Part shown: piece by piece, positions 27,044 to 45,387 of the stretch
Layout of the letters: each line of letters starts with the position of its first letter
How positions within the stretch are numbered: the stretch's first letter is position 1
Assembly: GCA_018613055.1 (NCBI GenBank)
Contig: JAGGQZ010000013.1
Location: 62,001-126,000, forward strand
From: Chryseobacterium sp. ISL-80
GTDB lineage: Bacteria > Bacillota > Bacilli > Bacillales > Cytobacillaceae
Length of the DNA: 64,000 nt
Direction of reading: 5' to 3'
Notes under the pieces: generated by a model
What the model was told of the DNA's origin: nothing
Databases searched by the model: none
Seen by the model: only the letters and a program-made list of their open reading frames with translations
Translations under genes and position numbers: made by a program

Positions 27044-30000
27044 GTGATTTTAACACTTTTTGACCGGAATCGGGTATTCGATCTCGTTTTGCCTGAACGA
27101 GTCACCGGGAGATACATACTTAACACAGAAGATCAGGAACAGAATCCGGTCGATATGCTGGCAGTGGAAGCGGAAGATGGCCAGTGGTACCTGAAGTCCA
27201 ATAAACATGCATTCATAAAGAATACCGCCAACGAAATACAATCAAAGGTCCTCATCGAACCATTCAAAACATATAGTATTCATCGCAACGATGATCAATC
27301 CGCGCTAGTCTATGTCGAGCCGCAAACAGCGGACCGCAATGAATTCACAAAACATATCGCAACAAGCAATGTCATAAAAATAGGGCGTTCCCAGGACAGC
27401 CAGATTTGCTTTTCGAACAAACTCGTATCGGGTTCACACTGTGTCATCGAATACAGCAGTAAGGGCGATGCTGTGATCAAGGACTTCAACAGTTCAAATG
27501 GTACATATGTCAATGGCGAAAGAATAAAGGAAAAGCCACTGACTGTTGGTGATGTCATTTTCATCATGGGCCTAAAAATCATCTTCAACGGCCGCCTGTT
27601 GTCGCTGAATAATCCACATAAATCAGTGTTCCTTGACCGGAACGCGTTCAATTCCTTCATTGCTGAAAAGCCTGTAGTAGAGAAAGAAATCAACCTCGAT
27701 GAAATACATATTGAAGAAGAAAATGATCAGTTGTTTTACCGTTCGCCACGCTTCAAGCGGGATATTGAAAATACAACGATAAAAATCGATCCGCCGCCAC
27801 CGCAGCCGAATGTGGATGAAACTCCGCTGATGCTGCTGCTGGGACCGTCAATCACGATGGGGATGGCATCCTTGTTCACAGGACTCCTGATGTTACAAAA
27901 CGTAATGAACAGGGGCGACAATATCATGTCGGCGATGCCAATGCTTGTTATGTCGTTCAGCATGTTGATCGGTACCGTACTCTGGCCGATTTTAACAAAA
28001 AGATACGAGAAAAAGCGCCGCATCAAGCTTGAAGGCATTCGCCAGGAGAAGTATCTGAAATATCTTGGGGAAATGAAGCAGGTAATCGCGGATGAGTGCA
28101 AGCACCAGAGTGAAATTCTTTTAGAAAACCATGTCACGCTGGAAAACTGCCTGACAAGGATCAAGCGCCGCCAGCGGAATCTATGGGAGCGCGGGATCGG
28201 GCAGAATGACTTTTTAAAAGTGCGTCTTGGGATCGGCGATTTGCCTCTGAATGCGGAGATCAAATATCCAGAAAAGCGCTTTATGCTTGAGGATGATAAT
28301 CTTCAGGATGAACTGTATCAAATCGTAGAACAGCCGCAGATTTTAAAGAATGTTCCGGTCACGGTAGACCTGACGGATGAAAGGATCAGCGGGATCATCG
28401 GCAGAAGGGAAGAAGTGAAGAGCTTCGTTCAGGGGCTGATTTTCCAGCTGACAGCATTGCATAGTTATGACGAGCTGAAATTGGTGTTCATTTACGATGA
28501 ACATGAACATGATACATGGAATTTTGTGAAGTGGCTGCCGCATGTCTGGGATGACGGCAAGACAATCCGCTTCGTCGCCACAGACGCCAATGAAATCAAG
28601 GAGCTTTCGGCTTACTTTGAAAAAGAAATCACCGCACGCCAGGCGCTTGATGAAGAAGACCTTGCGGAAATCGAACAGCATTATATCGTGTTCTCAATGA
28701 GCAAGAGCCTCGCTTCAAAGGCTGAGATGATTAATCTTATTTTAAAAGAAAAGAAGAATATCAGATTCAGCCTGGTCACACTTTATGACGAGCTGAAAAA
28801 CCTGCCGAAGGAATGCAGCAATGTCATCGAGCTCGACAAGAGTTTTTCGAAAATCTATGACAAGGACGATATTTCCGGGAAATATGTAGGCTTCAACGCT
28901 GACAGCTATCTGGAGGAGAATGCTGAAGAACTGGCAGTGAAATTGGCCAATATCCAGCTGAATACCTCACAGAAGGCATATACCCTGCCTGATATGCTGA
29001 CATTCCTGGAAATGTTTGGCGTCGGTAAAATCGAGCATCTCAATGCGCTGACAAAATGGAAGGAGAATAATCCGGTCCATACGATTCAAACGCAAATCGG
29101 TGTCGATACGCAGGGCGACCCGTTCATGATCGACCTGCATGAAAAGTATCACGGACCGCACGGCCTGATTGCCGGGATGACCGGTTCCGGTAAAAGTGAA
29201 TTCATCATGACGTTCATTTTATCGCTTGCGGTCAATTACCATCCAGATGAAGTTGCGTTCATCCTGATCGACTATAAGGGTGGCGGCATGGCGAATGCGT
29301 TCGAGGATCTGCCTCACCTGGCAGGGACAATCACGAACCTTGACGGAGCTGCCGTCAACCGGTCACTCATTTCTATCCAGAGTGAACTGAAGCGCCGACA
29401 GGCCATTTTTAGCGAAACGAGCCGGGTTGTTGACCAGAGCAATATCGATATCTATAAATATCAGAAACTTTACCGTGAAGGCATGGTAACAGAGCCTCTG
29501 CAGCATTTGTTCATCATTTCCGATGAGTTTGCCGAACTGAAGGCCCAGCAGCCTGAATTCATGGAGCAGCTTGTCAGTGCGGCGCGTATCGGCCGAAGCC
29601 TTGGCGTCCACCTGATCCTGGCGACACAAAAGCCATCAGGTGTTGTTGATGACCAGATCTGGAGTAACAGTAAATTCCGCATCAGCTTGAAGGTGCAGGA
29701 AAAAGCGGACAGTATGGAAGTCATCAAGCGTCCTGACGCCGCGGAGCTGAAGCAGACCGGACGTTTCTACCTTCAGGTCGGCTTCAACGAATTGTTCGAG
29801 CTGGGGCAGTCCGCATGGGCGGGTGCACCTTACTACCCGTCCGACAGAGTTGAAAAGCATAAGGATGACAGCGTCGTCGTCATCGATGACCTTGGCCGCG
29901 TCATTAAGAATGCCCGTATTGATAAGCGCAAGTCGGCAGTGAAGAATCCGCCGAAGCAAATCGATGAGATTACCGAATACCTGGCGAAAATGGCGCTGCA

Positions 30001-31663
30001 GGAGAACATCAAGGTCCGCCAGCTGTGGCTTGAGCCGATTCCTGAACTGATTTACGTAGATAAGCTGAAGAAGAAGTACGGCGTTGACCAGCAAGGTTTC
30101 CATCTGAATCCGATCATCGGCGAATACGATGATCCAGCGAACCAGAGGCAGATGGTCATGAGGATGCCGATCACACAGGACGGAAATGCCGTCATTTACG
30201 GAATCGCCGGCAGCGGCAAGACGACCTTCCTGACGACGATGCTCTACTCATTGATGGAAGAGCACACGCCGAACGAAGTGAACTTTTACCTGCTTGACTT
30301 CGGTTCCGAGACAATGGTCTGGTTCCGCGAAGCACCGCACGTCGGCGATGTCATGCTGTCGCATGAAAGCGAGAAGATCCACAACCTGTTCAAAATGCTG
30401 TCAGGCGAGATTGAACGGAGGAAGAAGCTGCTTTCGAATTACGGCGGCGATTTTATTACCTACAACGAGATGTCGGGCGAGAGCCTGCCATCGATCATTG
30501 TGGCGATCCACAACTATGCCGCGTTCTCAGAGATGTTCGAGGAGCTTGAGGAAGGGATATCATTCCTGACGCGCGAGGGCCTGAAGTATGGCATTTACTT
30601 CATCGTCACCGCGATCAATACGGGAGCGATACGCTACAGGCTGCTGCAGAACTTCAAGCAGATGTATGTGCTCCAGCTGAATGATCAATCCGAATACTCC
30701 GGCGTACTGGGCAATACAGATGGAGTTTATCCATCCAAATCGAAGGGCCGCGGCATATTCAAGAGTGATACCACATATGAATTCCAGACGGCCCATATCA
30801 CAAGCGATATAGACAATATGTATACCTTCATCACCGACTATTGCAAGGACCTGCGCGAAACCTGGACGCAGCCGGCCGCAATGCGCGTCCCGATCCTTCC
30901 GGAAAAAGTGGATCTGAACTATCTGCGTGATGAAGCAAAAAATATGACCAGTAACAAAGTACCAGTCGGCATCGAGAAAAACTCGCTGAAGACAGCTTAT
31001 TTCGATTTCCTTGGCAATTATATAAATGTCGTGACCGCTTCGCAAAACGACCAGTGCTCAAGCTTCATGCAGGGCGTCGCTGAAATTTTCAACGCTTCTG
31101 AAGGCAGGGAGCTGATCGTCATCGACCCTACTGAGCACTTCGCGGCGGGCCGCACACAGGATTACAAGTACATTGCTGATTCTGCTGAACTCGAAGACAC
31201 GATCATCTACCTGTTCAATACGCTCGTCCACCGCAACAATACGACGAAGGACGCGATCGAAGCGGGCGAACAGCCGCCAGTATTCAGCAACATCACCTGC
31301 ATCATCGATTCCTTTACCGACCTGATGATGTATCTGTCGCCGGACGGCCAGGATAAACTCAAAGTCTTCCTTGAAAAAGGCAACGGCCTGAATGTGAACC
31401 TGATCATCTCCGACAGCGCCGATAAACTGAGCTCCGTTTCATTCGAAGCCTGGTTCAAGCAGCACGTATCGCTAAGCGATTTCCTCTGGGCAGGCAACGG
31501 CATCACCGATCAGTACATCATGAAGATCGGCAAGGTGACAAACGATATGTACCAGGAAATCCCGCCAGGCTTCGGTTACGTCGTGACAAAAGGAAAAGCA
31601 ACACTCGTAAAGCTGTTAACCTCAGTCGAGAGCATGCAAGAGGAGGTAGCGTACCATGGATAA
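27044..31663 (+). CDS. essC: Type VII secretion FtsK/SpoIIIE ATPase EssC with N-terminal FHA domain
   Basis: A 1539-residue membrane ATPase that recognises WXG100 and effector proteins and powers T7SSb secretion. Order: YukA-type N-domain (1-95), FHA domain (about 108-180; IGRSQDS R115, SGSH 129-132, SSNGTYVNG), two membrane helices (about 260-315), then tandem FtsK/SpoIIIE domains: D1 with GMTGSGKS (K717) and LIDYKGGG, D2 with GIAGSGKT (K1059) and LLDFGSE, and a degenerate D3 (VVTASQNDQ). The FHA domain retains the R/S/H/N set needed for phosphothreonine binding. The GTG at 27044 follows GGGGAGG. It overlaps esaB by 8 bases. Confidence 0.93.
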   Translation: MILTLFDRNRVFDLVLPERVTGRYILNTEDQEQNPVDMLAVEAEDGQWYLKSNKHAFIKNTANEIQSKVLIEPFKTYSIHRNDDQSALVYVEPQTADRNEFTKHIATSNVIKIGRSQDSQICFSNKLVSGSHCVIEYSSKGDAVIKDFNSSNGTYVNGERIKEKPLTVGDVIFIMGLKIIFNGRLLSLNNPHKSVFLDRNAFNSFIAEKPVVEKEINLDEIHIEEENDQLFYRSPRFKRDIENTTIKIDPPPPQPNVDETPLMLLLGPSITMGMASLFTGLLMLQNVMNRGDNIMSAMPMLVMSFSMLIGTVLWPILTKRYEKKRRIKLEGIRQEKYLKYLGEMKQVIADECKHQSEILLENHVTLENCLTRIKRRQRNLWERGIGQNDFLKVRLGIGDLPLNAEIKYPEKRFMLEDDNLQDELYQIVEQPQILKNVPVTVDLTDERISGIIGRREEVKSFVQGLIFQLTALHSYDELKLVFIYDEHEHDTWNFVKWLPHVWDDGKTIRFVATDANEIKELSAYFEKEITARQALDEEDLAEIEQHYIVFSMSKSLASKAEMINLILKEKKNIRFSLVTLYDELKNLPKECSNVIELDKSFSKIYDKDDISGKYVGFNADSYLEENAEELAVKLANIQLNTSQKAYTLPDMLTFLEMFGVGKIEHLNALTKWKENNPVHTIQTQIGVDTQGDPFMIDLHEKYHGPHGLIAGMTGSGKSEFIMTFILSLAVNYHPDEVAFILIDYKGGGMANAFEDLPHLAGTITNLDGAAVNRSLISIQSELKRRQAIFSETSRVVDQSNIDIYKYQKLYREGMVTEPLQHLFIISDEFAELKAQQPEFMEQLVSAARIGRSLGVHLILATQKPSGVVDDQIWSNSKFRISLKVQEKADSMEVIKRPDAAELKQTGRFYLQVGFNELFELGQSAWAGAPYYPSDRVEKHKDDSVVVIDDLGRVIKNARIDKRKSAVKNPPKQIDEITEYLAKMALQENIKVRQLWLEPIPELIYVDKLKKKYGVDQQGFHLNPIIGEYDDPANQRQMVMRMPITQDGNAVIYGIAGSGKTTFLTTMLYSLMEEHTPNEVNFYLLDFGSETMVWFREAPHVGDVMLSHESEKIHNLFKMLSGEIERRKKLLSNYGGDFITYNEMSGESLPSIIVAIHNYAAFSEMFEELEEGISFLTREGLKYGIYFIVTAINTGAIRYRLLQNFKQMYVLQLNDQSEYSGVLGNTDGVYPSKSKGRGIFKSDTTYEFQTAHITSDIDNMYTFITDYCKDLRETWTQPAAMRVPILPEKVDLNYLRDEAKNMTSNKVPVGIEKNSLKTAYFDFLGNYINVVTASQNDQCSSFMQGVAEIFNASEGRELIVIDPTEHFAAGRTQDYKYIADSAELEDTIIYLFNTLVHRNNTTKDAIEAGEQPPVFSNITCIIDSFTDLMMYLSPDGQDKLKVFLEKGNGLNVNLIISDSADKLSSVSFEAWFKQHVSLSDFLWAGNGITDQYIMKIGKVTNDMYQEIPPGFGYVVTKGKATLVKLLTSVESMQEEVAYHG

Positions 31664-31907
31664 GGTGCTCGTAGAGGTCTTCATCCCCGCCTCGGAAAAA
31701 TCATACGACGTCTTCCTGCCGCCCGAAAGCAAACTGCACGAAGTCGTCTACCTGCTCGCAGGAACCATGACCGAACTGTCACAAGGATACTTCTCAGCAA
31801 CAGCCGACACCATCCTCTGTGACCGCAAAACCGGCACCATCCTGAACATCAACCAGACCGTCGAAGAACATGGGTTGATGAACGGGGCTAAGTTGATGCT
31901 GATTTAG
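31656..31907 (+). CDS. esaB: EsaB/YukD ubiquitin-like type VII secretion protein
   Basis: An 83-residue ubiquitin-fold protein of the YukD/EsaB family: beta-grasp pattern with LVEVFIPASEKSYDVFLPP at the start and MNGAKLMLI at the end. Such proteins are cytosolic regulators or components of T7SSb. Its start lies inside the end of essC (8-base overlap), behind AGAGGAGG, so the two are co-translated. No diglycine tail, as usual for this family. Confidence 0.9.
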   Translation: MDKVLVEVFIPASEKSYDVFLPPESKLHEVVYLLAGTMTELSQGYFSATADTILCDRKTGTILNINQTVEEHGLMNGAKLMLI

Positions 31908-31912
31908 AAGAT

Positions 31913-31985
31913 GGGGGACATGGGGACGGTTCTCTTGTCCCGCGACAGCGACACGACATAGTGACGGTTCTTGTGTCTCGTAATG
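31913..31985. repeat. Two tandem GACGGTTCT-core hairpin repeats
   Basis: Unit 1: GGGACA...TGTCCC (31915-31920, 31936-31941) around GGGGACGGTTCT. Unit 2: GACAC...GTGTC around TGACGGTTCT. Loop core is conserved while arms differ but remain complementary, as in REP-like elements. It lies between esaB and the lipoprotein gene; similar units are at 37678 and 56049. Confidence 0.65.
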
Positions 31986-32093
31986 TGCGACGCAGGTACG
32001 ATGCACGTCTCACAGAATATGAACATATGACCTTGGGGGCGGTTATCATAAACCGGACCGCTCCTGTTTTTAAATACGGAAGGTGTGGAGAAC

Positions 32094-32834: not shown

Positions 32835-32840
32835 TCAGGA

Positions 32841-34247: not shown

Positions 34248-34250
34248 ACA

Positions 34251-34442
34251 ATGGATGCGAAAGTGAGAAGCAAGATTAACAGGATTGCCAACGAAGCGAA
34301 TGCAATCGCCAGGGAGCTGGAGGATATTTCGAATGGTATCAGTCACGAATTCAAAGGAATTGGTTCGGTAAAAGCGGCCTCGGGATTGCGGCGTTCAGCA
34401 GAAAAATATCGCTACGTAAGCTACAAGTTAAGAAGAATATGA
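34251..34442 (+). CDS. Small helical protein, candidate lipase-targeting partner
   Basis: A 63-residue basic helical protein starting 4 bases after the lipase stop, behind AGGGGGTAAAC. It is smaller than WXG100 proteins and lacks W-x-G. In TslA-type loci small helical TlaA proteins bind the C-terminal targeting domain of the lipase; the same is inferred here from size, helicity and position. Confidence 0.65.
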   Translation: MDAKVRSKINRIANEANAIARELEDISNGISHEFKGIGSVKAASGLRRSAEKYRYVSYKLRRI

Positions 34443-34470
34443 CTCTATCAGACTTGAAAGGAGGTGAAAA

Positions 34471-34776
34471 ATGATGGCAAGATCAATCACTGTTGAACCA
34501 GCAAAGCTTGAAACGACTGCTAACAAGATTGAACAACAGGCAGCTGACTACGAAAGAAACTACAAAGCTCTTTTCAACGAAGTCGAAGGTATGGCTGCAG
34601 CATGGCAGGGTGCCGACAACCAGGCATACACTGCACAGATCAAAGGCTTCATGGACGACTTCCAGAAGATGACTCAGTTGATGAGACAATACTCTGAGTT
34701 CCTGAAGATGAGCGCGAAGACATACCGCGACACTCAATCTGAAGTCATTAACCAGGCTAAGAGATTGAGCAACTAA
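34471..34776 (+). CDS. WXG100 family type VII secretion protein (copy 1)
   Basis: A 101-residue helical-hairpin protein of the WXG100/EsxA family with the diagnostic turn AAWQGADN (W45-Q-G47). A strong AAAGGAGGTG site suggests high expression. No clear C-terminal Y-x-x-x-D/E motif is present, unlike copy 2. WXG100 proteins are both substrates and essential components of T7SSb. Confidence 0.92.
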   Translation: MMARSITVEPAKLETTANKIEQQAADYERNYKALFNEVEGMAAAWQGADNQAYTAQIKGFMDDFQKMTQLMRQYSEFLKMSAKTYRDTQSEVINQAKRLSN

Positions 34777-34806
34777 TCCATAACATAACGCAGGAGGTGA
34801 AATACA

Positions 34807-35109
34807 TTGGCAGGAGATGGAATCAAAATTTCGCTCGGCGAGGTTAGCAAAACGGCGGGCCAGATCCGCACGCTGAACCAGCAACTATCCACTAGATTGG
34901 AAGAAATCAAGAAGGACATGAACGCTCTAGCGTCATCATGGAACTCTGATGCATCCAACACAATCCGCGGCAACTTCAACTCATTGGCACCACGATTTGA
35001 AGAATATCGCCAGGTCGTCGACAGCTACGCCAAATTCTTGGATAACACTGTCACAAACTACAACACCGCAGAAACAGCAATCAACAACAACGCCAGCTCT
35101 TTTAAGTAA
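34807..35109 (+). CDS. WXG100 family type VII secretion protein (copy 2)
   Basis: A 100-residue helical hairpin with W-x-S at the turn (SSWNSDAS, W45) in place of W-x-G and a C-terminal YNTAE (Y85-x-x-x-E89), matching the Y-x-x-x-D/E secretion signal. TTG start behind GGAGGTG. Copies 1 and 2 each have one of the two hallmarks, which would fit a heterodimer sharing turn and signal (inference). Confidence 0.9.
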   Translation: MAGDGIKISLGEVSKTAGQIRTLNQQLSTRLEEIKKDMNALASSWNSDASNTIRGNFNSLAPRFEEYRQVVDSYAKFLDNTVTNYNTAETAINNNASSFK

Positions 35110-35115
35110 TCACTT

Positions 35116-35165
35116 TTTACAGAGGGTAGGGGGCAAGCGGCATTGGCAGTTTGCCCTTCTGTAAA
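35116..35165 (+). other. Hairpin after WXG100 genes
   Basis: TTTACAGA pairs with TCTGTAAA and GGGCAA with TTGCCC around a 14-nt loop. No T run follows on the plus strand, so it may act in RNA processing or protection of the WXG100 messages rather than simple termination. Confidence 0.5.
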
Positions 35166-35193
35166 ATTTACTCCTGGTTAAGGGCAATTACCC

Positions 35194-35298
35194 AAAAAGG
35201 GAATATATGAGGGTCAACCGGGAACAAAAGTGCTCCAACCGGTAATATCTGTCGACCAACCGGGAATAAATGCACTCCAACCGGGAATATCCATGATT
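35194..35298. repeat. Intergenic array, five 21-bp units (core CAACCGGGAATA)
   Basis: Units start at 35194 (degenerate), 35215, 35236, 35257 and 35278, each exactly 21 bases: about 12 conserved bases (CAACCGGGAATA) and 9 variable. It fills part of the 444-base gap between WXG100 copy 2 and the FHA protein gene, together with the second array at 35370. Confidence 0.85.
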
Positions 35299-35369
35299 TA
35301 GCGGGTTGGAAAGCTTTTGTTTTGCCTCTGCAATGCGACGGACTGGGGTTTACTGTAAAAAAACTGCCC

Positions 35370-35474
35370 CAACTGGAGATAAAATGATCTAAACCGGAGA
35401 TAAAAGCTCTTCAACTGGAGATAAAATGGGCCTAACTGGAGATAAAATCGTCCCAACTGGAGATAAACGTCCTT
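35370..35474. repeat. Intergenic array, five 21-bp units (core CAACTGGAGATAAAA)
   Basis: Units start at 35370, 35391, 35412, 35433 and 35454, each 21 bases, with a 14-15-base conserved part (CAACTGGAGATAAAA) and a 6-7-base variable part. It is related to but distinct from the array 70 bases upstream (CAACCGGGAATA), with which it shares a CAAC-(C/T)GG-like start. Confidence 0.88.
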
Positions 35475-35553
35475 CAAAGGATGGTCTCAACCTTAAATAA
35501 CGAGGTAGGCCGGCTAAAATCATACATAAATTCAAAATTGGAGTCGAAGTGCG

Positions 35554-36864
35554 ATGATCAAACATGTGGAATTCAAATTGGAAAGCTACGGGATATCAAA
35601 ATTCCTTTATTTTCATGCAAAAAGCAAGGCGGATATCGATGGCGGCCAGGTGGAGCTGCTTAGAGCGAGCCGGGTTCCGGGCATTCTGCCGTGCCATGCG
35701 ATTTTAGAGGGAGAGAACTGCTTTCTTCGCTATGACATGATTTCCGATAACACGCTTGAAATGCTGAATTCCGCACCAGCGACGAAGGAGCGGCTGTACA
35801 ACAGCTTCCTCAACATTGCGGAAACATTGGTGGATGCTCAAGCCAGCGGCCTGGATATCGCGAACTTCGTGCTCAGCCAGCGTGACATCTTTATTGATAA
35901 TTTTTCAAACAGATTAGTTTTTATCTACCTCCCAGTAAAAAATAATATTTTTGAAAAGGTATCACTTAAAGAGTTCCTGCAGGAATTGCTGCTGTCGGCT
36001 CCTTACGACGAAAATGATGATGCCGTATTTTTCATCAAACTCCATAACTATCTGGTCGAGACAGATGACATCACGCCAGAACATCTTTTGGAAAAAATGA
36101 ATGAGCTGGGCGGGGATGAAACGCTCGTCCGCCAGCCTTACAAAATGCCGGAAAAACCGAAACAGGAAGCGGCACCACAAGCAATACCGGTCGAAGAACC
36201 ACTGCTGGAATCATCAGAGCTTGAAACGCCGGCCATCAACCCGAATTTCTACAGCCCGGGCAGTGAAGTTCACACCATGAAAACGAGCGTCGACAATGGC
36301 GTGCTGACTTCCGAGTATACAAGCCAGAAGAAGGATGTAAAAACAGGGCGCAAGCTCGAAATCGAGGAAGAGGTCAATTACAAGCGCATCACCAGGGCAG
36401 AGCTTGGTGACAACAATGCCTTGCTAAAAGAGGCTTCGGCACTCGGCGGAGGGACGTCAATCAACATCCAGCCGGCCATTGCCAGCAGTGAACACGAGGA
36501 TGAAGGCACGACAGTACTTGGTGTCATGGCCGATGAGGATGAGGGGACAACAACCCTCGGCCATTCGGTTCGCAGGCCATTTTTACTGGCAGTATCAAAG
36601 AATGAAAAAATCACGATTGCCAAGGACCTTTTCAAAATCGGCCGTGATCCGATGAGGGCGGACTTTGCATCGGAAAACAAAGTGATCGGCCGGGTGCATG
36701 CCCATGTGATTGTATCGAACGGCGAATATTTCCTCGAAGACAATCACTCGACCAACGGCAGTTTTGTGAATGGCGTGAAGGTCTCGCCTAAGGAAAAAGT
36801 CAAAATCAAGCATGAAGACAAAATCAAGCTCGCGAACGAGGAGTTCATCTTCAGGCTTTATTGA
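35554..36864 (+). CDS. DUF6382 and FHA-domain protein (candidate EssB-like component)
   Basis: A 436-residue soluble protein. The N-terminal region (1-185) is of DUF6382 type, which resembles the pseudokinase-like cytosolic part of EssB/YukC in size and context (inference). A disordered linker (190-340) carries two T-T-x-L sites, EGTTVLG (T319) and EGTTTLG (T332), and the C-terminus is an FHA domain (345-436; IGRDPMR R364, GRVHAH, STNGSFVNG). The linker motifs resemble those in the protein at 39760 and could be kinase targets bound by an FHA domain in cis or trans. No membrane helix. Confidence 0.8.
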   Translation: MIKHVEFKLESYGISKFLYFHAKSKADIDGGQVELLRASRVPGILPCHAILEGENCFLRYDMISDNTLEMLNSAPATKERLYNSFLNIAETLVDAQASGLDIANFVLSQRDIFIDNFSNRLVFIYLPVKNNIFEKVSLKEFLQELLLSAPYDENDDAVFFIKLHNYLVETDDITPEHLLEKMNELGGDETLVRQPYKMPEKPKQEAAPQAIPVEEPLLESSELETPAINPNFYSPGSEVHTMKTSVDNGVLTSEYTSQKKDVKTGRKLEIEEEVNYKRITRAELGDNNALLKEASALGGGTSINIQPAIASSEHEDEGTTVLGVMADEDEGTTTLGHSVRRPFLLAVSKNEKITIAKDLFKIGRDPMRADFASENKVIGRVHAHVIVSNGEYFLEDNHSTNGSFVNGVKVSPKEKVKIKHEDKIKLANEEFIFRLY

Positions 36865-36882
36865 TGGATAGGAGGAACCAGG

Positions 36883-37653
36883 ATGGCATTTCAAGTGGCC
36901 TATCATACCGACATAGGAATCAAGAAGAAAACGAACCAGGATGGGTTGTTGCTAAAAACGGCGAAGACACCTGACGGGGAGATTGGCCTGTTCATCATCT
37001 GCGATGGCATGGGCGGCCTTTCCCACGGGGAGCTTGCAAGCGCGACGGTAATCAGGGGCGTGTCCGACTGGTTTGACAACGATCTGCCGGAGCTACTGGA
37101 GGCCGGCATCGCTGAAAACGATATTCCCGGCAAGCTTGAGGAACGTGTCCGCGAGCTGAATACTAAAATTCTTGAATATGGCGAGGCTTCGAACATCAAG
37201 CTCGGGACAACGATCACGGCCTTGCTCATCCTCCAAAAGCAGTATTACATTTTACAGATTGGTGATAGCAGGGCATACAGCATTAATGATCATCTGGTAA
37301 AACTGACCGAGGACCAGACGCTCGTCGAACGCGAGCTGCAGCGCGGCAACATCACCGCGGAACAGGCAAGGATTGACCCGCGAAGGAATGTGCTGCTCCA
37401 GTGCGTTGGCGCAACAAAGGAAATCAACGTCGTCACCACTTCAGGCCAACTCGAAAGCGGAAGCATGTTTATGCTCTGCACCGACGGATTTTACCATGAA
37501 ATCACAGATGATGAAATGCTCACTAACCTGAACCCGCAACATTTTACCAGTGAAAAAACCATGAAAGAAAAGCTCGTTCAACTCGTCGAGCTCGCAAAAG
37601 AACGCCAGGAAACGGACAATATCTCGATTCTTTTGGCAAAAAAGGAAGCATAG
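36883..37653 (+). CDS. PP2C-family protein serine/threonine phosphatase
   Basis: A 256-residue PPM/PP2C phosphatase with the metal-binding motifs TNQDG, IICDGMGG, GTTITAL, IGDSRAY, CTDGFYHEIT and DNIS, all intact, so it should be active. It removes phosphate from Ser/Thr residues and is the counterpart of the kinase 100 bases downstream. TAGGAGG before the ATG; 18 bases after the FHA protein gene. Confidence 0.92.
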   Translation: MAFQVAYHTDIGIKKKTNQDGLLLKTAKTPDGEIGLFIICDGMGGLSHGELASATVIRGVSDWFDNDLPELLEAGIAENDIPGKLEERVRELNTKILEYGEASNIKLGTTITALLILQKQYYILQIGDSRAYSINDHLVKLTEDQTLVERELQRGNITAEQARIDPRRNVLLQCVGATKEINVVTTSGQLESGSMFMLCTDGFYHEITDDEMLTNLNPQHFTSEKTMKEKLVQLVELAKERQETDNISILLAKKEA

Positions 37654-37677
37654 GGAATCTAGATTCTGCTGGCAAAA

Positions 37678-37706
37678 CGAGACATGGGTACGGTTCTCGC
37701 GCCTCG
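37678..37706. repeat. GACGGTTCT-type hairpin repeat, degenerate copy
   Basis: CGAG...CTCG arms (37678-37681 and 37702-37705 region) flank GGGTACGGTTCT. It matches the loop core of the units at 31913 and 56049 with different arms, and lies between the phosphatase and kinase genes. Confidence 0.5.
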
Positions 37707-37754
37707 ATAATGAGGATTGCTAGAACAATCCCCGCGTTTCTGGGAGGAATGACT

Positions 37755-39698
37755 TTGATACAAATTGGCACGATTATCGATGACAGATATGAAATATTGA
37801 AGGAAATCGGGCGCGGCGGGATGAGTGTCGTCTACCTGGCGATGGACAACCGGCTCAACAAGTCGCTCGTCGTCAAGGATATCCGTAAACGCAGCAATAG
37901 CAATAACGAGCTGCTGATCAACAGCCTGGTCGTCGAGGCGAACATGCTGAAAAAGCTGGACCACGGTTCGCTGCCGAAAATCTATGACATCATCGAGTCC
38001 GAAGGCGACATTTATGTGGTGATGGACTATATCGAGGGTGAGTCGCTGAAGGAAAGGCTGAAGCGCGACGGCAAGATCCCCGCAAAAGAAGTGATCGAGT
38101 GGGCGAGGCAGCTGAGCGATGTCCTCGGCTATCTGCACACCCGCAAGCCGTACCCGATCATTTACCGCGATATGAAGCCGGACAATGTCATGCTGACGCC
38201 CGAGGGGAAAATCAAGCTGATTGACTTCGGGATTGCGCGGGAATTCAAAACCGAGAATCTCTCTGACACTACGAATCTCGGAACGAAGGGGTATGCGGCA
38301 CCAGAGCAGATTTCCGGGAGGCAGACCGACGCGAAAACGGATATTTACAGTTTGGGAATCACGCTCTACCATCTCGTCACCGGGAAAAGCCTGAGCGAGC
38401 CGCCGTTTGAGATCAGGCCGATCCGCGAATGGGACCCGTCACTTCCGGAAGGTCTCGAGCATATCATCAAAAAATGTACCCAGGCCGAGCCGGAGAAACG
38501 CTACCAAAACTGCGAGGAGCTTAGCTATGACCTTGAACACATCAACAGGCTGACGAAGGGCTATAAGAACATGCTGATCAAGAAGCTGGCGATGTTCCTC
38601 GTTCCGGCTGTACTGTTCCTCGGGTTCTCAACAACTTCTGCCTTAGGCTATAAAGGTATGAAAAATGAACAATTCCAGGATTATATGAATCTTGTCAACC
38701 AGGCGAGCATCGCGTTGATGGATGGGGAGCAAACGGAAGCAATCAAGCTGCTCGAAAGCGCGACCCGTGTCGACAAGGAGCGCCCCGAGGCTTATATTAA
38801 TCTGCTTGATTTATATATTAATAGAAACCAGACAGACGAAGGACTCGCCAAGCTGGAATCATACATACAGGATGAATACGGAGGAGTCCACAAAAATAAC
38901 GAGGTCCTTTTCAAAATGGGGATGACCTATTTTGATGTAAACAGGGACTATAACAATGCGCTGAAATACTTCCAGCAGATCGATGAAAAAGAACTGCCGG
39001 ATGCGAAGTATTACAAGTCGCTGGCAACGACTATGAGCAGTCTAAATGTCGACTATACGAAGTTCGCCGCGGACCTTCAGGAGTTCCATGAGTACAATGA
39101 TGGCCTGGCTAACGACAGCAAGAAAATCGATAACTACAACTCTCTTGCAAATATCTACATTTCTTATAAAAGCCAAATTCCAGATGCGAACACCCAGGCA
39201 ATCGAGATTGTCCAGAAAGCGAAAGAAGTGCTGGCAAAGCTTGAAAACGAACAGCTCCAATTCAAGTACGAAATGGAATTTGAACAAAAGCTGGCCCAGG
39301 CGTACTACAGCCGCGGCGTCAATTCCGAAGACAAAGCGAGTGCCCGCGGCGATTTTGAACAGGCAATCGAGCATTATAACAATCTGCTCGATTTGAATGT
39401 AGCTGACCAGGAAGAGGTTTACGTCAAAATTGGCGTCATTTATCAGGAGATGGGTGAATTCTCACGGGCAGTCGAACATTTCAGGAACAGTGCGTTGAAA
39501 AAATTCCCTGAAAGCATCGACGCTCATGTAAAATTCGGGAACCTGCTCCTCGACATCGAACAAAACAAAGAAGAAGGCAAGCGAAACTACACCGAGGCGA
39601 AAAAAGTCTATGAAAAAGCAGGCAGCCTGCCTGGTGCCAAAGACGATGAAGGATACAAAAAACTCAGCAGACGCATGGAAAACTTGAATATTCTCTAG
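37755..39698 (+). CDS. Membrane Ser/Thr protein kinase with C-terminal TPR domain
   Basis: A 647-residue Hanks-type kinase. Kinase domain 10-262: GRGGMSVVY loop, K41 (VVKD), E62, catalytic Y137-R-D139-MKPDN (Tyr instead of His in HRD), DFG 157-159, activation loop with D-T172-T173-N-L, AAPEQ. A membrane helix follows at about 279-298, then a presumably extracellular TPR region (about 310-640) in place of PASTA repeats. The TTG at 37755 is 7 bases after GGGAGG; the ATG 6 bases earlier is too close to it. The activation-loop TTNL resembles the T-T-x-L sites in neighbouring proteins, suggesting shared specificity (inference). Confidence 0.9.
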   Translation: MIQIGTIIDDRYEILKEIGRGGMSVVYLAMDNRLNKSLVVKDIRKRSNSNNELLINSLVVEANMLKKLDHGSLPKIYDIIESEGDIYVVMDYIEGESLKERLKRDGKIPAKEVIEWARQLSDVLGYLHTRKPYPIIYRDMKPDNVMLTPEGKIKLIDFGIAREFKTENLSDTTNLGTKGYAAPEQISGRQTDAKTDIYSLGITLYHLVTGKSLSEPPFEIRPIREWDPSLPEGLEHIIKKCTQAEPEKRYQNCEELSYDLEHINRLTKGYKNMLIKKLAMFLVPAVLFLGFSTTSALGYKGMKNEQFQDYMNLVNQASIALMDGEQTEAIKLLESATRVDKERPEAYINLLDLYINRNQTDEGLAKLESYIQDEYGGVHKNNEVLFKMGMTYFDVNRDYNNALKYFQQIDEKELPDAKYYKSLATTMSSLNVDYTKFAADLQEFHEYNDGLANDSKKIDNYNSLANIYISYKSQIPDANTQAIEIVQKAKEVLAKLENEQLQFKYEMEFEQKLAQAYYSRGVNSEDKASARGDFEQAIEHYNNLLDLNVADQEEVYVKIGVIYQEMGEFSRAVEHFRNSALKKFPESIDAHVKFGNLLLDIEQNKEEGKRNYTEAKKVYEKAGSLPGAKDDEGYKKLSRRMENLNIL

Positions 39699-39759
39699 GG
39701 GGCAAAGGGATGATCCCCAATAGTAAAGGGGCTCTTCCCAAGAAAGGCAGTTGAAGAGA

Positions 39760-40455
39760 ATGGCATACCAGATTATGTTCTACGGCGGTATGGCAGGGGC
39801 AGCGATTACGCTGGTGATTGCCATCACTGTCTATATAAAACTCAATATTGCCCAGGTGATTACGGACCTTACAGGATGGAATTGGCCTGGTGCGGGGAGA
39901 AAAGCCAGAAAAACGGCCAGCAAGAACATCGACACAAGCACGAAGCCGACAACAAAGGAAATCCATGTCCGCAAAAATGTCGAGAAGGAAGTGGCGGCAG
40001 GTGAATATGTGGAGCCGACGGAGAAGATGGCAAGCGGGCAGATGGATCCGACCGCGCTTTTGAGCCAGGAGAGCTTCAAAAAGACAGCCTTGCTTAAAAA
40101 GGAGGGACTTGACCCGACCGCGTTGCTCACACCGGATGGGCTCGAGCCGACAGCATTGCTCACGCCAGATGGACATGAAGCAACAGGTCTTCTGGCCGCA
40201 ACCCCAAAACGGGAACCAGTAGTAGCCGCAGTCTCAGCCAGCAGAAACCATCCATCTGAATCACCAACCGAAACGACTATCCTGTCAGACTGGAATGAAA
40301 CAACCGTCCTGACAGCAGATCCGGATGAAACAACATTATTGGGTGAAACAACCTTATTGGACGACAACGATGAAACCACCCTACTGACAGAAGAGGAACC
40401 ACGCTTTCAGAAACAAGTGGATATCATGATTGTCCACTCAGAAACTATCATTTAA
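39760..40455 (+). CDS. Membrane protein with ten T-x-x-L phosphoacceptor-like motifs
   Basis: A 231-residue protein with one N-terminal membrane helix (about 7-28) and a long, probably cytosolic tail. The tail carries five T-A/G-L-L motifs (T98, T109, T120, T131, T142, mostly in DPTALL-type repeats) and five E-T-T-I/V/L-L motifs (T172, T181, T191, T197, T206). All ten have Leu at +3, the position many FHA domains read after phosphothreonine, and the ETTxL form recalls the phosphorylated ETTS site of mycobacterial GarA. It is a plausible multivalent kinase substrate that recruits FHA-EssC or the FHA protein. A possible TTG start lies 9 bases earlier. Confidence 0.75.
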   Translation: MAYQIMFYGGMAGAAITLVIAITVYIKLNIAQVITDLTGWNWPGAGRKARKTASKNIDTSTKPTTKEIHVRKNVEKEVAAGEYVEPTEKMASGQMDPTALLSQESFKKTALLKKEGLDPTALLTPDGLEPTALLTPDGHEATGLLAATPKREPVVAAVSASRNHPSESPTETTILSDWNETTVLTADPDETTLLGETTLLDDNDETTLLTEEEPRFQKQVDIMIVHSETII

Positions 40456-40470
40456 AAAGGAGAATTAAAA

Positions 40471-43400
40471 ATGCTCGAACCTAGGAAAAAGAAAAAGAAG
40501 CTTCGTAAAAAGTGGGCAATCGCTCTTCCAATTGTGCTAGTGCTAATATCCTCGGTTTTAGTTTTAAATGGAAAAGTTCTATCTGAGCAGACAGAACCTA
40601 AAAGGTATATTTCTTATAATGACCAGCAATGGGAGATGGAATCACAACCATCTGAGGAAATATGGACTAACAAAGATAACATTTCCTTTGTTGTTAATTT
40701 GGAAGACGATTATGGAAGAATTGAGAATAAAGCTGAAATAAATCCAGAAGTTGATAAGCCTATTTCGGTTTCAGCTAAACAAGGAGAAAATACAATTGAT
40801 AATGTAGCTATTACTCCTCAAGTGATAGGTGAGGTATTTACTGGATTATATAACGTCACTGTACCTGTAACAGCTGATGGAGCCGTAATGATAAATGTTG
40901 AGATTGCACAGCATGAAAAGTGGAATAATCCTGCTTCAGAAGGGTCTTTTAACATTCTTCGTGACAAGACTGATCCAACGGCAGATTTAATTGGAAAAAG
41001 TGGAACAGTAAATGGTGATTATTACACAGAAGATGTCACTTTAACAGCAGTGGTAAATGAAACAAACCTTTCACCAAATTCAATAAAGATTTACAGGAAA
41101 AAGAATGATGAAGCGGAAGAATATTTGACGGTAGATGCCGCTGAAGGTGGAGAGTATACAAAGGACCTTTCCTTCAAAGAAAATGGCGATTATATAGTTA
41201 ATATCAAAGCGACAGATAAAGCAGGGAATAAAGTAGATAATACCTACGAATTTACGATTTCAAAAGAAGGAAATCAACCGGATGTAACTATCCTCAATTT
41301 GACAGACGGTGGAAGTATTATCAAGAATTTTGCCCATTCTAATAATATTAAAATAAATGTAAACAGCCAGGTTTCCATGAGTGAAGCAAATTTTGTCCTT
41401 ATAAAAGATAACATTGAAGTCTTAAATAGGGTGATCGAGGTAAAAGGAAGAACAACAAGTTTAGAATATGATCTAAGTCAAAATGGTTTGGAAAATCCAG
41501 ATGGGAATTACCAAATTAAAGTCACAGTTAAGGATAAACGTGGTAACATTCTAGAACCTGCGACATATTCCTTTGTTATTGATAATACACCTCCTGAGTT
41601 TACTTATAATGTGGACAATGATGAAGTTGTTAAACAAAAAAAGGATGTTGCAATCGAGTTAGAGGAAAAAAACATACAATCATCCACTATAGCTGTTACA
41701 ATGCAGAAGGTCGATGGGACAGTAGTGCCAATTGTTGAAAGCAAGAATGGAGATGCAACTTTCACGGCATCTGAAGAAGGCGAATACACAATTAAATTAG
41801 AAGCAAGCGATAAAGCAGGAAATATTTTAATAGATACTGACCCTATTAAGTTCAAAGTTGAAAATGAATCAGCACCTGATATTACAATTAAGGCAAAAAC
41901 TCTGAGCGGAGAAACATACGCAAATGAAGAGATTAATGGACAATATTTCAATAATGATACTGAAATTGATTTCAAAGCTATAGATATTACTCTGACGGAA
42001 GCGATATTAAGTTTAACGAAGGGAGATTCAGAGCCCGAAAATATACCGTTAAACAAAGGGTTATTCTGGGCTAATACCAATCAGACTTTTACTGAAAATG
42101 GCCAGTATACTGTTGAAATGAATGCAAAAGATTTATTCAATAATCCCAGCTCAAAAGGACCGTATACTTTTACAATTGATAAAAATCCTCCTAAACTAGA
42201 AATTTTTAATTTTGAGGAAAGTGGAGAGTACGGTGGAAAACAGGAATTTACAATCAAGGTGAAAGATGAGAACTTTGATTTCGAAAATACAAAGATAACA
42301 GTTTTGCGTGATGGGATGGAACCGGGAGAAAAGGAAAAGCCAGAAATCTTAAAAATCAAAGAAGAAGGTCTTGATGGTGCCTTATTTAAATTTAGTTATG
42401 ATATAGACGGGAACTATGAAATTAATTTTGACATCCAGGACAAAGCAACGAACAGGCCTGTAAACGATTCAGCAATCAAATTTACTATTGACAAAGAAAG
42501 TCCTAATTTGATTTTGGATAAAAGGCTTGAAGATAACAGTCATTATCCTGGTTTAAAGGATGTCGCTTTTACTATCGAGGATTTAACCCTGGATTGGGAA
42601 GAGTCAGTTGTAACAGTGACCAAAGAGGATGGAACTATTACGGAATATAAGGATTGGAAAAAGGGAAACAAAGGCAGATTGAAGACTGCTTATCAAACTA
42701 TTGATTTTGAAGAAGAAGGAGACTATAAGGTAGAGTTCAAAGGCTTTGACAAAAAAGAAAATGACTATTCAATCAAGACAATTCATTTCACGATTGATAC
42801 AACAAGTCCTGAAATTAAATTTAGTGGCATTAATGAAGGTGATTTTGTAACAAGTGATGAAATAATTGATGTTCTGATCAAAGAGCATAATCACGAATCC
42901 ATGAATGTGGAAGTCTATTACACAGTGAATGGAGGAAAAGAAAAGAAACTTGAATGGATGGACAACGGTGAAAGTTCCGAAAATCCTTACTCATTCAATG
43001 GCGATGGTCAGTATGTATTTACTGTGGTAGCTACAGACAAAGCAGAAAACCGTTCAACTTTATCAAGAACTTTCACTATAGATGATACTCCACCGAAAAT
43101 TGAAATTACAGATACTTCTCGGGAGTACTACAGTAACAAAGGCCGAGAGATCAAAATCAAAGTTGATGAACTTAACTTTGTGAAAAATAAAGTGGACATC
43201 GATTTAAAAGTGAATGGGAAACCAGTTTTATTCAAAGGTGATTGGAACAGAGAGGGAATTAGAAGTTTTATTGTAGATGAATTTGATGCTGATGGCGATT
43301 ATGAAATCAAAGTTACAGCAGAAGACAAAGCAGGCAACCCAGCGAAAACAGAGAAACATCAGTTCACAATTGACATGACAAAACCTCAAGTGGAGCTAGA

Positions 43401-45387
43401 GACAGAAATAGAAAATGGTCTCAACTACAAGAGAAACATGCTGGTCAAAATGAAAGTTGAAGACCGGAATATTAATCTATCAAACACAGATTTAGAGGTT
43501 AAGAAAGATGGTAAAACTTATAATGTAGGTAAATTGAAATTACTCGGAGATTCAAAAACAAAGGCTTATAACAGCTACACATTCTTTGAAGAAGGCGAAT
43601 ATGAAATCAATCTTAAGTCTACAGATAAAGCTGGCAACACAAAGAAACATGAGCAACTTGCTTTCATCATCGACAAAACAAACCCAGTAGTCAAAATTGA
43701 TGGAGTCGATAACAACTCATTCAATCCTGAAAACAAAAATGTCACCATCTCGATTGATGAACTGAATTTTGAAACGAACAATGTCAGCGTCAGCGCGACG
43801 AAAGATGGAGCTGCATTCTCGATCGGAACTTGGAAAAACAGAGAAAAACTTTCGAAGCTGGGCTACAATTTTACCAGGGACGGCCTATACACCATCCTCG
43901 CGACTGCAGAGGACAAGGCCGGTAATGGTCCAATCACTGAAAAAAGGACCTTTACCATCGACAAGACCAAACCAGAAATCGAGATTACAGGTGTCGAAAA
44001 TAACGCCTATTACAATGTTGATAAACCTGTTAACGCTACAATCAAAGATGTAAACCTGGATATCAACAGAATCACTGTTACAAGAAACGGTGCAAGATAT
44101 AACGCCGGCGGCTTCTCTGTAAATGGAGATCTTGCTTCCTTCCGCCACAACTTCAGCGGAGAAGGGGAGTACAACATCCTGGTTGAAGCAACTGACAAAG
44201 CGGGCAACAGCTTCAGTAAAACGATGACGTTCACCATTGACAAAACGAAGCCTGTCATCATGCCGAAGTTCAAAGGACAGAATCGTGTCATTAAAGATGG
44301 CGAGTATATCAATGAAGTGTTCACACCTGAGTTTGCCCTGGATGAAGCGGAGGATATGATCGTTTCTGCGACATTGAACAATGGTGCGAATCTTGGTAAA
44401 AACATTCCGGTTGCCGCAAGGGAAATGAAGTATATTTACAAAGTTCTCGCTCGCGACAAAGCAGGCAATGAATCAACACTGGAAATCAGCTTCACGCTGG
44501 ATACAACGAAACCAGCGCTGAATATTTCCGGCGTACTTGATGGCTTTTTCAATAAAGACATCACGCCGAAAGTGACGTATTCAGACATCCACCTGGATAG
44601 CAGCAAGACATCCGTTACTTTGAACGGTAAGCCATTCGAAAACGGAACAAAGCTTGAATACGAACAGGATTATATTTTAAAAGTAGTTATCACAGACCTG
44701 GCGAAAAATGTTTCATCAAGAACAATCGTCTTCACAATTGATAAAACAAAGCCAGTCATCAAGTTCAAAGAGCCAATTTCAAATAAGTATTTCAACACCG
44801 ATCTCCTCCCGCAGTTGCTGATTGATGACATGAGTTCTTACGATATCATCGCCATGATGCTTGACGGAAAACCATATGAAAAAGGCGATCCAATCAAGGA
44901 AGAAGGAAAGCACGTCATGTTCTTCGAGGTGAAGGATAAGGCAGGCAACATCCAGCAGCTGAGCGTCGAATTCATCATCGACAAAACCGCTCCAAAGGTA
45001 GTGTATGAAGGTGTAAAAAATAAAGGGAAATACCATGATCCAATTGACATCGCGATTCGCCTTGATAACCCAAATGACAAAATAAAATCGGTCATGATCA
45101 ACGGTGAAATGTTCGATGGCGATGTAATTGAAGAAAATGGCTTCAAGGTCATCAAGACCAAATTGGCTGAAATTAAGTCATATGAAATCAAAGTAACTGC
45201 GTCTGATGAGGCAGGCAATGAAAAAACAACTGTCATCTCATTCGAAATCGTTGAAAAAGGAGCTTTAGTGAAGTTTTATGAAAATAAACCTTTGCTGGGC
45301 GGGACGGTTGCGGGCTTGGTAGGATTAATCGGAGCTGCAGCAACTATGATGGTTAGAAGACGCAAGTTGAAAGTGGAAGAAGAATAA
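40471..45387 (+). CDS. Giant Ig-like repeat membrane protein of the T7SS island
   Basis: A 1638-residue protein: Lys/Arg-rich cytosolic start, membrane helix (about 16-36), about 15 Ig-like repeats each marked by a D-K-A-G-N-type turn and a T-I-D-K-T-K-P linker, then a second membrane helix (about 1605-1626) and a basic tail. No LPXTG signal is seen. Both ends should be cytosolic with a ~1560-residue extracellular stalk, the topology of YueB/EsaA, so it may replace that missing component (inference). Base composition shifts near 43,740: earlier repeats are AT-rich, later ones GC-richer. AAAAGGAGA precedes the ATG; a long terminator follows. Confidence 0.8.
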   Translation: MLEPRKKKKKLRKKWAIALPIVLVLISSVLVLNGKVLSEQTEPKRYISYNDQQWEMESQPSEEIWTNKDNISFVVNLEDDYGRIENKAEINPEVDKPISVSAKQGENTIDNVAITPQVIGEVFTGLYNVTVPVTADGAVMINVEIAQHEKWNNPASEGSFNILRDKTDPTADLIGKSGTVNGDYYTEDVTLTAVVNETNLSPNSIKIYRKKNDEAEEYLTVDAAEGGEYTKDLSFKENGDYIVNIKATDKAGNKVDNTYEFTISKEGNQPDVTILNLTDGGSIIKNFAHSNNIKINVNSQVSMSEANFVLIKDNIEVLNRVIEVKGRTTSLEYDLSQNGLENPDGNYQIKVTVKDKRGNILEPATYSFVIDNTPPEFTYNVDNDEVVKQKKDVAIELEEKNIQSSTIAVTMQKVDGTVVPIVESKNGDATFTASEEGEYTIKLEASDKAGNILIDTDPIKFKVENESAPDITIKAKTLSGETYANEEINGQYFNNDTEIDFKAIDITLTEAILSLTKGDSEPENIPLNKGLFWANTNQTFTENGQYTVEMNAKDLFNNPSSKGPYTFTIDKNPPKLEIFNFEESGEYGGKQEFTIKVKDENFDFENTKITVLRDGMEPGEKEKPEILKIKEEGLDGALFKFSYDIDGNYEINFDIQDKATNRPVNDSAIKFTIDKESPNLILDKRLEDNSHYPGLKDVAFTIEDLTLDWEESVVTVTKEDGTITEYKDWKKGNKGRLKTAYQTIDFEEEGDYKVEFKGFDKKENDYSIKTIHFTIDTTSPEIKFSGINEGDFVTSDEIIDVLIKEHNHESMNVEVYYTVNGGKEKKLEWMDNGESSENPYSFNGDGQYVFTVVATDKAENRSTLSRTFTIDDTPPKIEITDTSREYYSNKGREIKIKVDELNFVKNKVDIDLKVNGKPVLFKGDWNREGIRSFIVDEFDADGDYEIKVTAEDKAGNPAKTEKHQFTIDMTKPQVELETEIENGLNYKRNMLVKMKVEDRNINLSNTDLEVKKDGKTYNVGKLKLLGDSKTKAYNSYTFFEEGEYEINLKSTDKAGNTKKHEQLAFIIDKTNPVVKIDGVDNNSFNPENKNVTISIDELNFETNNVSVSATKDGAAFSIGTWKNREKLSKLGYNFTRDGLYTILATAEDKAGNGPITEKRTFTIDKTKPEIEITGVENNAYYNVDKPVNATIKDVNLDINRITVTRNGARYNAGGFSVNGDLASFRHNFSGEGEYNILVEATDKAGNSFSKTMTFTIDKTKPVIMPKFKGQNRVIKDGEYINEVFTPEFALDEAEDMIVSATLNNGANLGKNIPVAAREMKYIYKVLARDKAGNESTLEISFTLDTTKPALNISGVLDGFFNKDITPKVTYSDIHLDSSKTSVTLNGKPFENGTKLEYEQDYILKVVITDLAKNVSSRTIVFTIDKTKPVIKFKEPISNKYFNTDLLPQLLIDDMSSYDIIAMMLDGKPYEKGDPIKEEGKHVMFFEVKDKAGNIQQLSVEFIIDKTAPKVVYEGVKNKGKYHDPIDIAIRLDNPNDKIKSVMINGEMFDGDVIEENGFKVIKTKLAEIKSYEIKVTASDEAGNEKTTVISFEIVEKGALVKFYENKPLLGGTVAGLVGLIGAAATMMVRRRKLKVEEE

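Follow-up and report, generated by a model that had tools for sequence, protein, structure and literature searches.

What does a tandem run of threonine motifs do in the tail of a small membrane protein encoded within a protein secretion locus? The question is raised by a type VII secretion system (T7SS) locus in a 64,000-nucleotide stretch of Chryseobacterium sp. ISL-80 DNA (assembly GCA_018613055.1, contig JAGGQZ010000013.1, forward-strand positions 62,001 to 126,000), which we call the window and whose own numbering we use. The protein, K, is encoded beside a kinase (D), a phosphatase (F), a protein with a forkhead-associated (FHA) domain (J) and an immunoglobulin (Ig)-like protein (I), and the secretion ATPase of the locus, EssC, has an FHA domain of its own. 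We propose, with a probability of roughly two in three, that K is a membrane-tethered multivalent phosphothreonine (pThr) docking array that would be phosphorylated by D, bound by an FHA domain and reset by F. G and L numbers are our handles for genomes and loci, and statements about published work refer to excerpts of the cited papers.

A threonine array in the tail of K

The reading frame of K opens at a TTG codon (39751) or, more likely, at an ATG codon (39760). The protein has a single clear hydrophobic segment, near residue 19, and an acidic tail (25 acidic and 8 basic residues in 130) that we assume to be disordered. Within this tail lie ten sites of the form T-x-h-L (h standing for I, L, V, M or F), at T101, T112, T123, T134, T145, T175, T184, T194, T200 and T209; shuffles of the same tail yield 0.63 such sites on average (p=0.0005). 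An earlier note, made from the letters of this DNA, had described ten T-x-x-L sites in the tail of a membrane protein, five of them ETT(I/V/L)L, and the positions that we read agree with that description. The units of the two halves of the array are given in Table 1. Identical motifs in the window array are written with differing codons.

Conservation of the array across K proteins

At the threshold of the ortholog search tool, K is found in 16 of 121 relatives, and these 16 are also precisely the genomes with full or near-full J orthologs. Partial J matches alone were returned for 17 more genomes, some of which contain diverged K genes of the kind that the ortholog search misses. The genes neighbouring K are syntenic in 15 fetched loci as far as each stretch extends. 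The number of sites varies within the genus and the unit stays [DE]-x-T-x-[ILV]-L-like; constant parts of the protein are an N-terminal YQIMFYGG segment and a C-terminal F(K/Q/R)K(Q/E)(V/I)(D/E)I..VHS peptide. Partial J matches and DUF6382 matches led to further K-type genes downstream of the kinase gene in other Bacillales (L087, L089, L090, L092, L094, L095, L098, L068 and L069). A contig scan with J kept 80 loci, most of which look like unrelated FHA proteins; 20 of these were screened for the cassette, and three have K, namely a Lachnospiraceae metagenome-assembled genome (MAG; L146), a Clostridiales MAG (L147, by reading past its kinase) and Natronobacillus azotifigens (L221). In the class to which the Lachnospiraceae MAG belongs, at least 9 of 391 genomes (the MAG itself among them) have K-like genes, with 1 to 8 sites each; this is a lower bound because the profile was built from two sequences.

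The 36 K tails collected from Bacilli and Clostridia, which are not independent in that 14 come from one genus, hold 266 T-x-h-L sites (15.3 expected) and 0 S-x-h-L sites (9.3 expected). The ratio of threonine to serine agrees across subsets, being 115:0 in the genus and 151:0 in the other 22 tails. Sites number from 1 to 17 per tail, and 34 of the 36 tails are above chance at p<=0.009. The earlier note had staked its proposal on the persistence of the motifs in homologous loci; every one of the 36 tails retains at least one. As a control, we counted T-x-h-L and S-x-h-L in 771 open reading frames (ORFs) with no more than 1.5 sites per 100 residues and obtained 621:697. The 25 densest of 797 ORFs from 55 stretches are exactly the 25 K proteins; one ORF (L089, 13095-13490) is intermediate between these and the controls and was left out of both counts. 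Where a tail has a [DEGNPA]-T-x-h context, leucine follows at +3 in 225 of 250 cases, compared with 0 of 20 for the serine version.

We compared codons among 14 same-genus K genes, using columns with at least 8 of the 14 sequences. At the motif threonine codons, 1.6% of sequence pairs (11/695) show a non-synonymous difference and 53% a synonymous one, against 41% and 22%, respectively, at spacer codons; non-synonymous pair differences amount to 12% at the +3 leucine and 9% at the +2 hydrophobic position. Together with the varied codons within the window array, this comparison speaks for purifying selection acting on the motif and against fresh duplication. That the repeats form a low-complexity linker, with motif copies left by recent functionless duplication of DNA, would suit a copy number of 1 to 17 and the regularity of some arrays (9-residue spacing in L090, for example), but the varied codons, the strong codon constraint and the retention of the motif in both Bacilli and Clostridia make this explanation extremely improbable. 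The array is real and conserved, and it is more general than the earlier note stated.

K lies downstream of the kinase gene on the same strand in 35 of the 36 loci, where the two stop-to-stop frames are separated by -58 to 420 bases (three K positions being estimated). The remaining locus, L089, has a gap of 1042 bases and a split kinase frame. No K was found in L088, which runs into a contig end, or in L097, which has a broken frame nearby, and none was called in L105 (G108), where EssC, J, F and D are present. Frames are split in both J and EssC at L031, in the kinase at L089 and in F at L097, which may reflect assembly errors or decaying loci. The largest array, that of L090 (14283-15371), has 17 tail sites, most of them regularly spaced, which suggests recent tandem expansion of the unit.

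The kinase and the phosphatase

Both enzymes look intact, as the earlier note had anticipated in describing a Hanks kinase and an intact PP2C. D contains YRDMKPDN and DFGIA motifs and one transmembrane (TM) segment (residues 288-306), after which come tetratricopeptide repeats (TPRs), and F contains all five of the PP2C motifs looked for. The same note had related a D-T-T-N-L string in the activation loop of D to the array. The string is present, but it belongs to an ordinary, generic activation loop (SDTTNLGTKGYAAPE), and we dropped it as an array member.

Kinases with a beta-branched residue after DFG favour threonine (PMC3898841). The DFG+1 residue of D is isoleucine, and DFGIA is found in all 27 copies listed. 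The absence of serine from the arrays fits a writer and a reader alike and by itself cannot tell the two apart. An alternative to docking is therefore that the tail is a multi-site substrate with no reader, acting by bulk charge change or by kinase buffering, with the motif as a kinase recognition sequence. A kinase with isoleucine after DFG would prefer threonine by itself and so produce the threonine rule with no FHA domain involved, and the tail of K is already acidic. We nevertheless regard such a substrate as unlikely, since the locus encodes two FHA proteins that hold the sole two Pfam FHA domains of the genome (E<=0.001), and since the motif fits the pTxx[I/L/V] class, one of two listed for FHA domains, which strictly need pThr (PMC8786283).

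EssC and J as candidate readers

The earlier note had placed the FHA domain of EssC at about residues 108-180, with R115 as a key residue, and the Pfam match supports this placement (Table 1). The pocket residues R115, S129, H132 and N152 are intact in 11 of 11 aligned copies, these being the window EssC and ten relatives that share its genus, family or order; in three of the ten no K was called. A separate listing of pocket residues has no rows for L034, whose stretch does not include EssC, for L025 and L031, where the N-terminus lies beyond the stretch or in a broken frame, or for L094, L097 and L098, where it lies beyond the stretch; G058, G039 and G070 were read in the alignment instead. 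The pattern matched wrongly in the L037 and L068 rows of this listing. For G068, L096 is the contig that carries EssC. Split by EssC pocket, array size has medians of 13 (7 entries, with the genus entered once) and 4 (16 entries; Mann-Whitney p=0.005) in an exploratory comparison that ignores phylogeny.

The intact pocket sets the window EssC apart from that of the T7SSb systems, whose FHA lacks a pThr site (PMC11217815, PMC9600267). T7SSb EssC binds the EssB pseudokinase through this domain, apparently independently of phosphorylation (PMC9600267), which lends something to the idea that the T-x-h-L repeats are hydrophobic docking peptides for another protein and need no phosphate. This idea leaves both the choice of threonine over serine (266:0) and the linkage to a kinase gene unexplained, and we consider it quite improbable.

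J is the FHA protein that the earlier note had recognised in the frame starting at 35554, with R364 in its FHA domain and T319 and T332 in its linker, all of which we find as described. Among 16 diverse J proteins, L322 is invariant and T319, T332 and L335 are nearly so, and the two linker sites persist at overall identities of 19-72%. We rejected the linker sites as a K-dependent trait, since many DUF6382-FHA proteins at loci with no K carry one or two T-x-h-[LIV] sites before the FHA domain; in that count the pattern mis-called the FHA start in several rows (for example L071, L073, L076 and L102). In the FHA domain of the window J, Gly379 occupies the serine position of S-x-x-H.

The N-terminal domain of J, DUF6382, is predicted to adopt a kinase fold. 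It was folded alone, since a fold search with the full-length protein was filled by FHA matches. Residues 1-190 of the window J contain no HRD/YRD, DFG, VAIK or glycine-loop string, and EssB/YukC is not among the fold matches listed for this domain, which excludes nothing. The J proteins of the window clade have no TM segment in their model. At L237 (12906-16891), in a Clostridia genome, two DUF6382-FHA proteins stand in tandem upstream of F, D and K.

Given that the EssC pocket is intact and the J pocket is altered, EssC is the better candidate for reading K in the window locus; the earlier note had offered the two as equals. It is possible, though we think it doubtful, that J and not EssC is the general reader, its FHA domain binding phospho-K and its kinase-fold domain relaying the signal to whichever machine is at hand, with the EssC FHA as a secondary client. 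J accompanies K in all 16 of the relatives with K and also in genomes that yielded no EssC. In G049, G284 and G382, moreover, J holds the sole Pfam FHA domain of the genome, which means that any FHA reader of K there must be that of J, and its pocket is canonical in G284 and G382, as it is in L221. Against this stand the changes to the J pocket in the window clade and its sister clade, and the EssC pocket that is intact in all 11 copies.

Evidence against docking on EssC, and cassettes where EssC was not found

Several observations weigh against the proposal that K docks FHA domains, and in particular that of EssC. Two Clostridia K proteins hold one motif each (p about 0.1). As a DNA pattern, E-T-T-h-[L/F] has 40 matches in the genome and its reversed control has 62, and we accordingly rejected genome-wide enrichment; just the clustering is unusual, five of the 40 sitting within 116 bp of K and the next-closest pair elsewhere being about 2 kb apart. 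Both the restriction to threonine and the leucine at +3 could stem from kinase preference alone. The J FHA pocket is altered from Ser to Gly in the window clade, from Arg to Lys and from Asn-Gly to Asn-Lys in the sister clade (G049 included), and carries Lys for Arg in Clostridia J proteins beside K (L146, L147, L237, L238 and L240). By a pattern test, K stands beside EssC N-termini with no canonical FHA motif in G527, G682, G850, G814 (its first EssC inspected, its second left out), G038 and G069. Finally, EssC was not found in nine genomes with K (G049, G284, G382, G892, G500, G501, G588, G708 and G520), where FtsK/SpoIIIE-like matches alone were seen; completeness is shown for three of these (G049, G284 and G382), G049 having 12% contamination. 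These six and nine genomes led us to reject EssC as the invariable reader, and EssC is thus not a universal one. In G723, EssC matches are split and below the cut-off.

By the same evidence, the J-F-D-K-I cassette is not restricted to T7SSs; the earlier note had assigned the scaffold to T7SS control. The loci L068, L069 and L221, from genomes in which EssC was not found, carry J-F-D-K-I, each with a tandem pair of PP2C-like genes (Pfam identified one of those in L068; the others were recognised by blastp or inspection). The G284 cassette adjoins a Tad pilus locus with T2SSE, two T2SSF, TadE and prepilin peptidase genes; the ORFs of G382 (L069), on inspection, are arranged likewise, and L068 adjoins a Tad/Flp pilus locus by Pfam. 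A T2SSF gene is present in the L221 stretch, and prepilin peptidase genes in those of L238 and L243.

A more speculative extension, which we put forward tentatively and hold to be less probable than docking itself, is that J-F-D-K-I is a self-standing, portable pThr docking cassette, into which the T7SS would plug by way of the EssC FHA and Tad pili would plug in genomes with no EssC. The copy number of sites in K might then be a valency dial for the FHA parts brought together, which might form a membrane condensate, switched by the kinase, from which the machine nucleates.

The locus and its secretion system type

The features of the window locus are collected in Table 1. A Pfam scan covered 12 ORFs, from 26295 to 45387.

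Table 1. Features of the window locus, in window coordinates.
Feature	Position	Strand	Evidence or remark
spoIIID, one flank of the secretion locus	25667		Pfam
EssC/TsxC, FtsK-type secretion ATPase	27044..31663	+	NCBIfam T7_EssCb_Firm TIGR03928, 1129 bits (cut-off 778); FtsK_SpoIIIE 2.2e-59
EssC FHA domain, residues 111-172	27374..27559	+	Pfam 1.5e-17; candidate K-array reader
EsaB/YukD-like ubiquitin-fold protein (TsxB)	31656..31907	+	YukD 6e-5, 24.2 bits, below cut-off 27
Lipoprotein-like ORF	starts 32085		between YukD-like and WXG100 genes
Mbeg1-like/SA1320-type lipase-like protein	starts 32841		between YukD-like and WXG100 genes
WXG100 protein (TsxA)	34471..34776	+	PF06013 2e-13
Second WXG100 protein (TsxA2)	34807..35109	+	PF06013 1.5e-12; NF035934 ESAT6_2 155 bits
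J (TseJ/TsjJ-like)	35554..36864	+	Pfam DUF6382 30-167, FHA 361-426
Parts of J			residues 1-188 DUF6382; 189-339 disordered linker; 340-436 FHA
J linker candidate acceptor site 1, T319-T-V-L322	36508..36519	+
J linker candidate acceptor site 2, T332-T-T-L335	36547..36558	+
F, PP2C/PPM phosphatase (TsxF)	36883..37653	+	PP2C_2 2.3e-10; putative eraser
D, Hanks-type Ser/Thr kinase (TsjD-like)	37710..39698	+	Pkinase 1.1e-52, TPRs; putative writer
K (TsxK)	39751..40455	+	N-terminal TM helix, acidic tail, conserved C-terminal peptide
K array, first half	40051..40194	+	five [DEK]-[PKA]-T-[AG]-L-L sites, 11-residue spacing
K array, second half	40273..40386	+	five E-T-T-[ILV]-L sites
I, large Ig-like envelope protein (TsxI)	40471..45387	+	Big_13 3e-65; hydrophobic segments near both ends (hydropathy)
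MreB/Mbl-like gene, other flank	45897		named by inspection

Garrett, Higginson and Palmer (2024; PMC11217815) gave component lists for two T7SS types, T7SSe and T7SSj, that they defined from gene neighbourhoods and for which they suggested control by threonine phosphorylation. The window locus matches this architecture. It encodes a TsxC (TIGR03928) whose N-terminal FHA retains the pThr residues (R115, S129, H132 and N152), TsxA with two PF06013 matches, F, J with DUF6382 and FHA domains, Ig-like I, and a D kinase with a TM segment and a C-terminal TPR domain, as in T7SSj. K has the expected single TM segment, the one strong hydrophobic segment noted above, with disorder of its cytoplasmic tail assumed. 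The second WXG100 protein corresponds to TseA2 of T7SSe, and the match to TseB is weak (24.2 bits versus 27). We noticed no H component among the 12 scanned ORFs, there being no H model to search with. Likewise, none of the T7SSb components EssB/YukC, EssA and EsaA was among these 12 locus ORFs, to which that search was confined. The locus differs from the published types in three respects: the window comes from a Bacillales genus, and the reported T7SSj systems are from a subset of Clostridium; published TseK (PMC11217815), to which no function is assigned, consists of one TM helix and a short unstructured part in the cytoplasm, and the window K has a ten-site array; and J-F-D-K-I is also present here in genomes that yielded no EssC.

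The earlier note knew of no described T7SS with such a scaffold. The T7SS type, its components and the idea of phospho-control had in fact been published (PMC11217815), but we found no description of the array there, nor of the array and its breadth in the open-licence PMC literature (supplements excluded). The locus type is thus known, and the array and its breadth appear undescribed in the literature searched.

Other genes of the locus deserve mention. A divergent WXG100-like ORF on the reverse strand (26295-26642) scores 25.4 bits against a Pfam cut-off of 27.3 and is about 75-94% identical where found in genus loci. The lipoprotein-like and lipase-like ORFs (32085-34247) are 39-94% identical to their counterparts, compared with mostly >90% for the neighbouring EssC and WXG100 genes in the genus, and the pair looks like a diversifying T7 substrate with its immunity lipoprotein. 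The Ig-like I is about 23-71% identical in matched parts and far more variable among relatives than EssC or the kinase, which fits what is expected of an envelope-exposed part.

A proposed mechanism and its relatives

The proposed mechanism builds on features read from the sequences, namely the array, its conservation, its restriction to threonine, its linkage to kinase, phosphatase and FHA genes, and the EssC pocket. EssC-type ATPases are thought to be hexameric. D, a TM kinase encoded by the adjoining gene, would phosphorylate the T-x-h-L threonines in the cytoplasmic tail of K and probably also the two threonines in the J linker. An FHA domain would then dock on phospho-K, in the window locus most likely that of EssC, possibly together with the altered FHA of J. 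The many sites of each tail would gather several copies of EssC, along with J, at the membrane beside the envelope-spanning I, and this gathering may help the machine to assemble or to act. F would reverse the phosphorylation of K. Of the multivalent phospho-scaffold that the earlier note had proposed for graded control of secretion, it is the multi-site acceptor array that holds up, given the 36 tails with threonine and never serine, the codon constraint and the intact kinase, phosphatase and FHA genes.

The arrangement resembles known phosphothreonine-FHA scaffolds, in that many threonine-specific sites of the Txx[I/L/V] type lie in one tail. A similar logic operates in type VI secretion, where a membrane kinase and an FHA protein act with a phosphorylated membrane or scaffold protein to activate secretion or assembly: in A. 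tumefaciens, PpkA-dependent pThr14 of TssL binds Fha (PMC3953482), and in A. citrulli, PpkA-Fha condensates recruit parts of the type VI machine (PMC12607579). Where A. tumefaciens has one phosphosite on a core component, the window locus devotes a single-TM protein to its many candidate sites and has an FHA domain fused to the secretion ATPase. Mycobacterial Rv1747, an ABC transporter, combines FHA domains and a disordered linker on one protein and forms condensates that are promoted by kinases and reversed by PstP (PMC9312465), and the PknB-phosphorylated tail of the MviN pseudokinase recruits the FHA domain of FhaA (PMC12599244); unlike the window locus, neither is a protein-secretion machine. 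The EssB/YukC-EssC pair of T7SSb likewise places a kinase-fold domain and an EssC FHA in one machine, as DUF6382 of J is predicted to do here. Unlike EssB/YukC, J of the window clade has no predicted TM segment and has an FHA domain of its own.

An array that uses threonine only, with leucine at +3, across Bacilli and Clostridia gives K a concrete and testable job, and it predicts a use for the intact EssC FHA pockets of T7SSe and T7SSj. DUF6382 is offered as a kinase-fold domain, which would tie J to the EssB-EssC contact of the classic T7SS. Garrett et al. did not settle whether T7SS and Tad systems that neighbour each other are regulated in common (PMC11217815). Our findings suggest that one phospho-cassette may serve these two unrelated machines, the T7SS and Tad pili.

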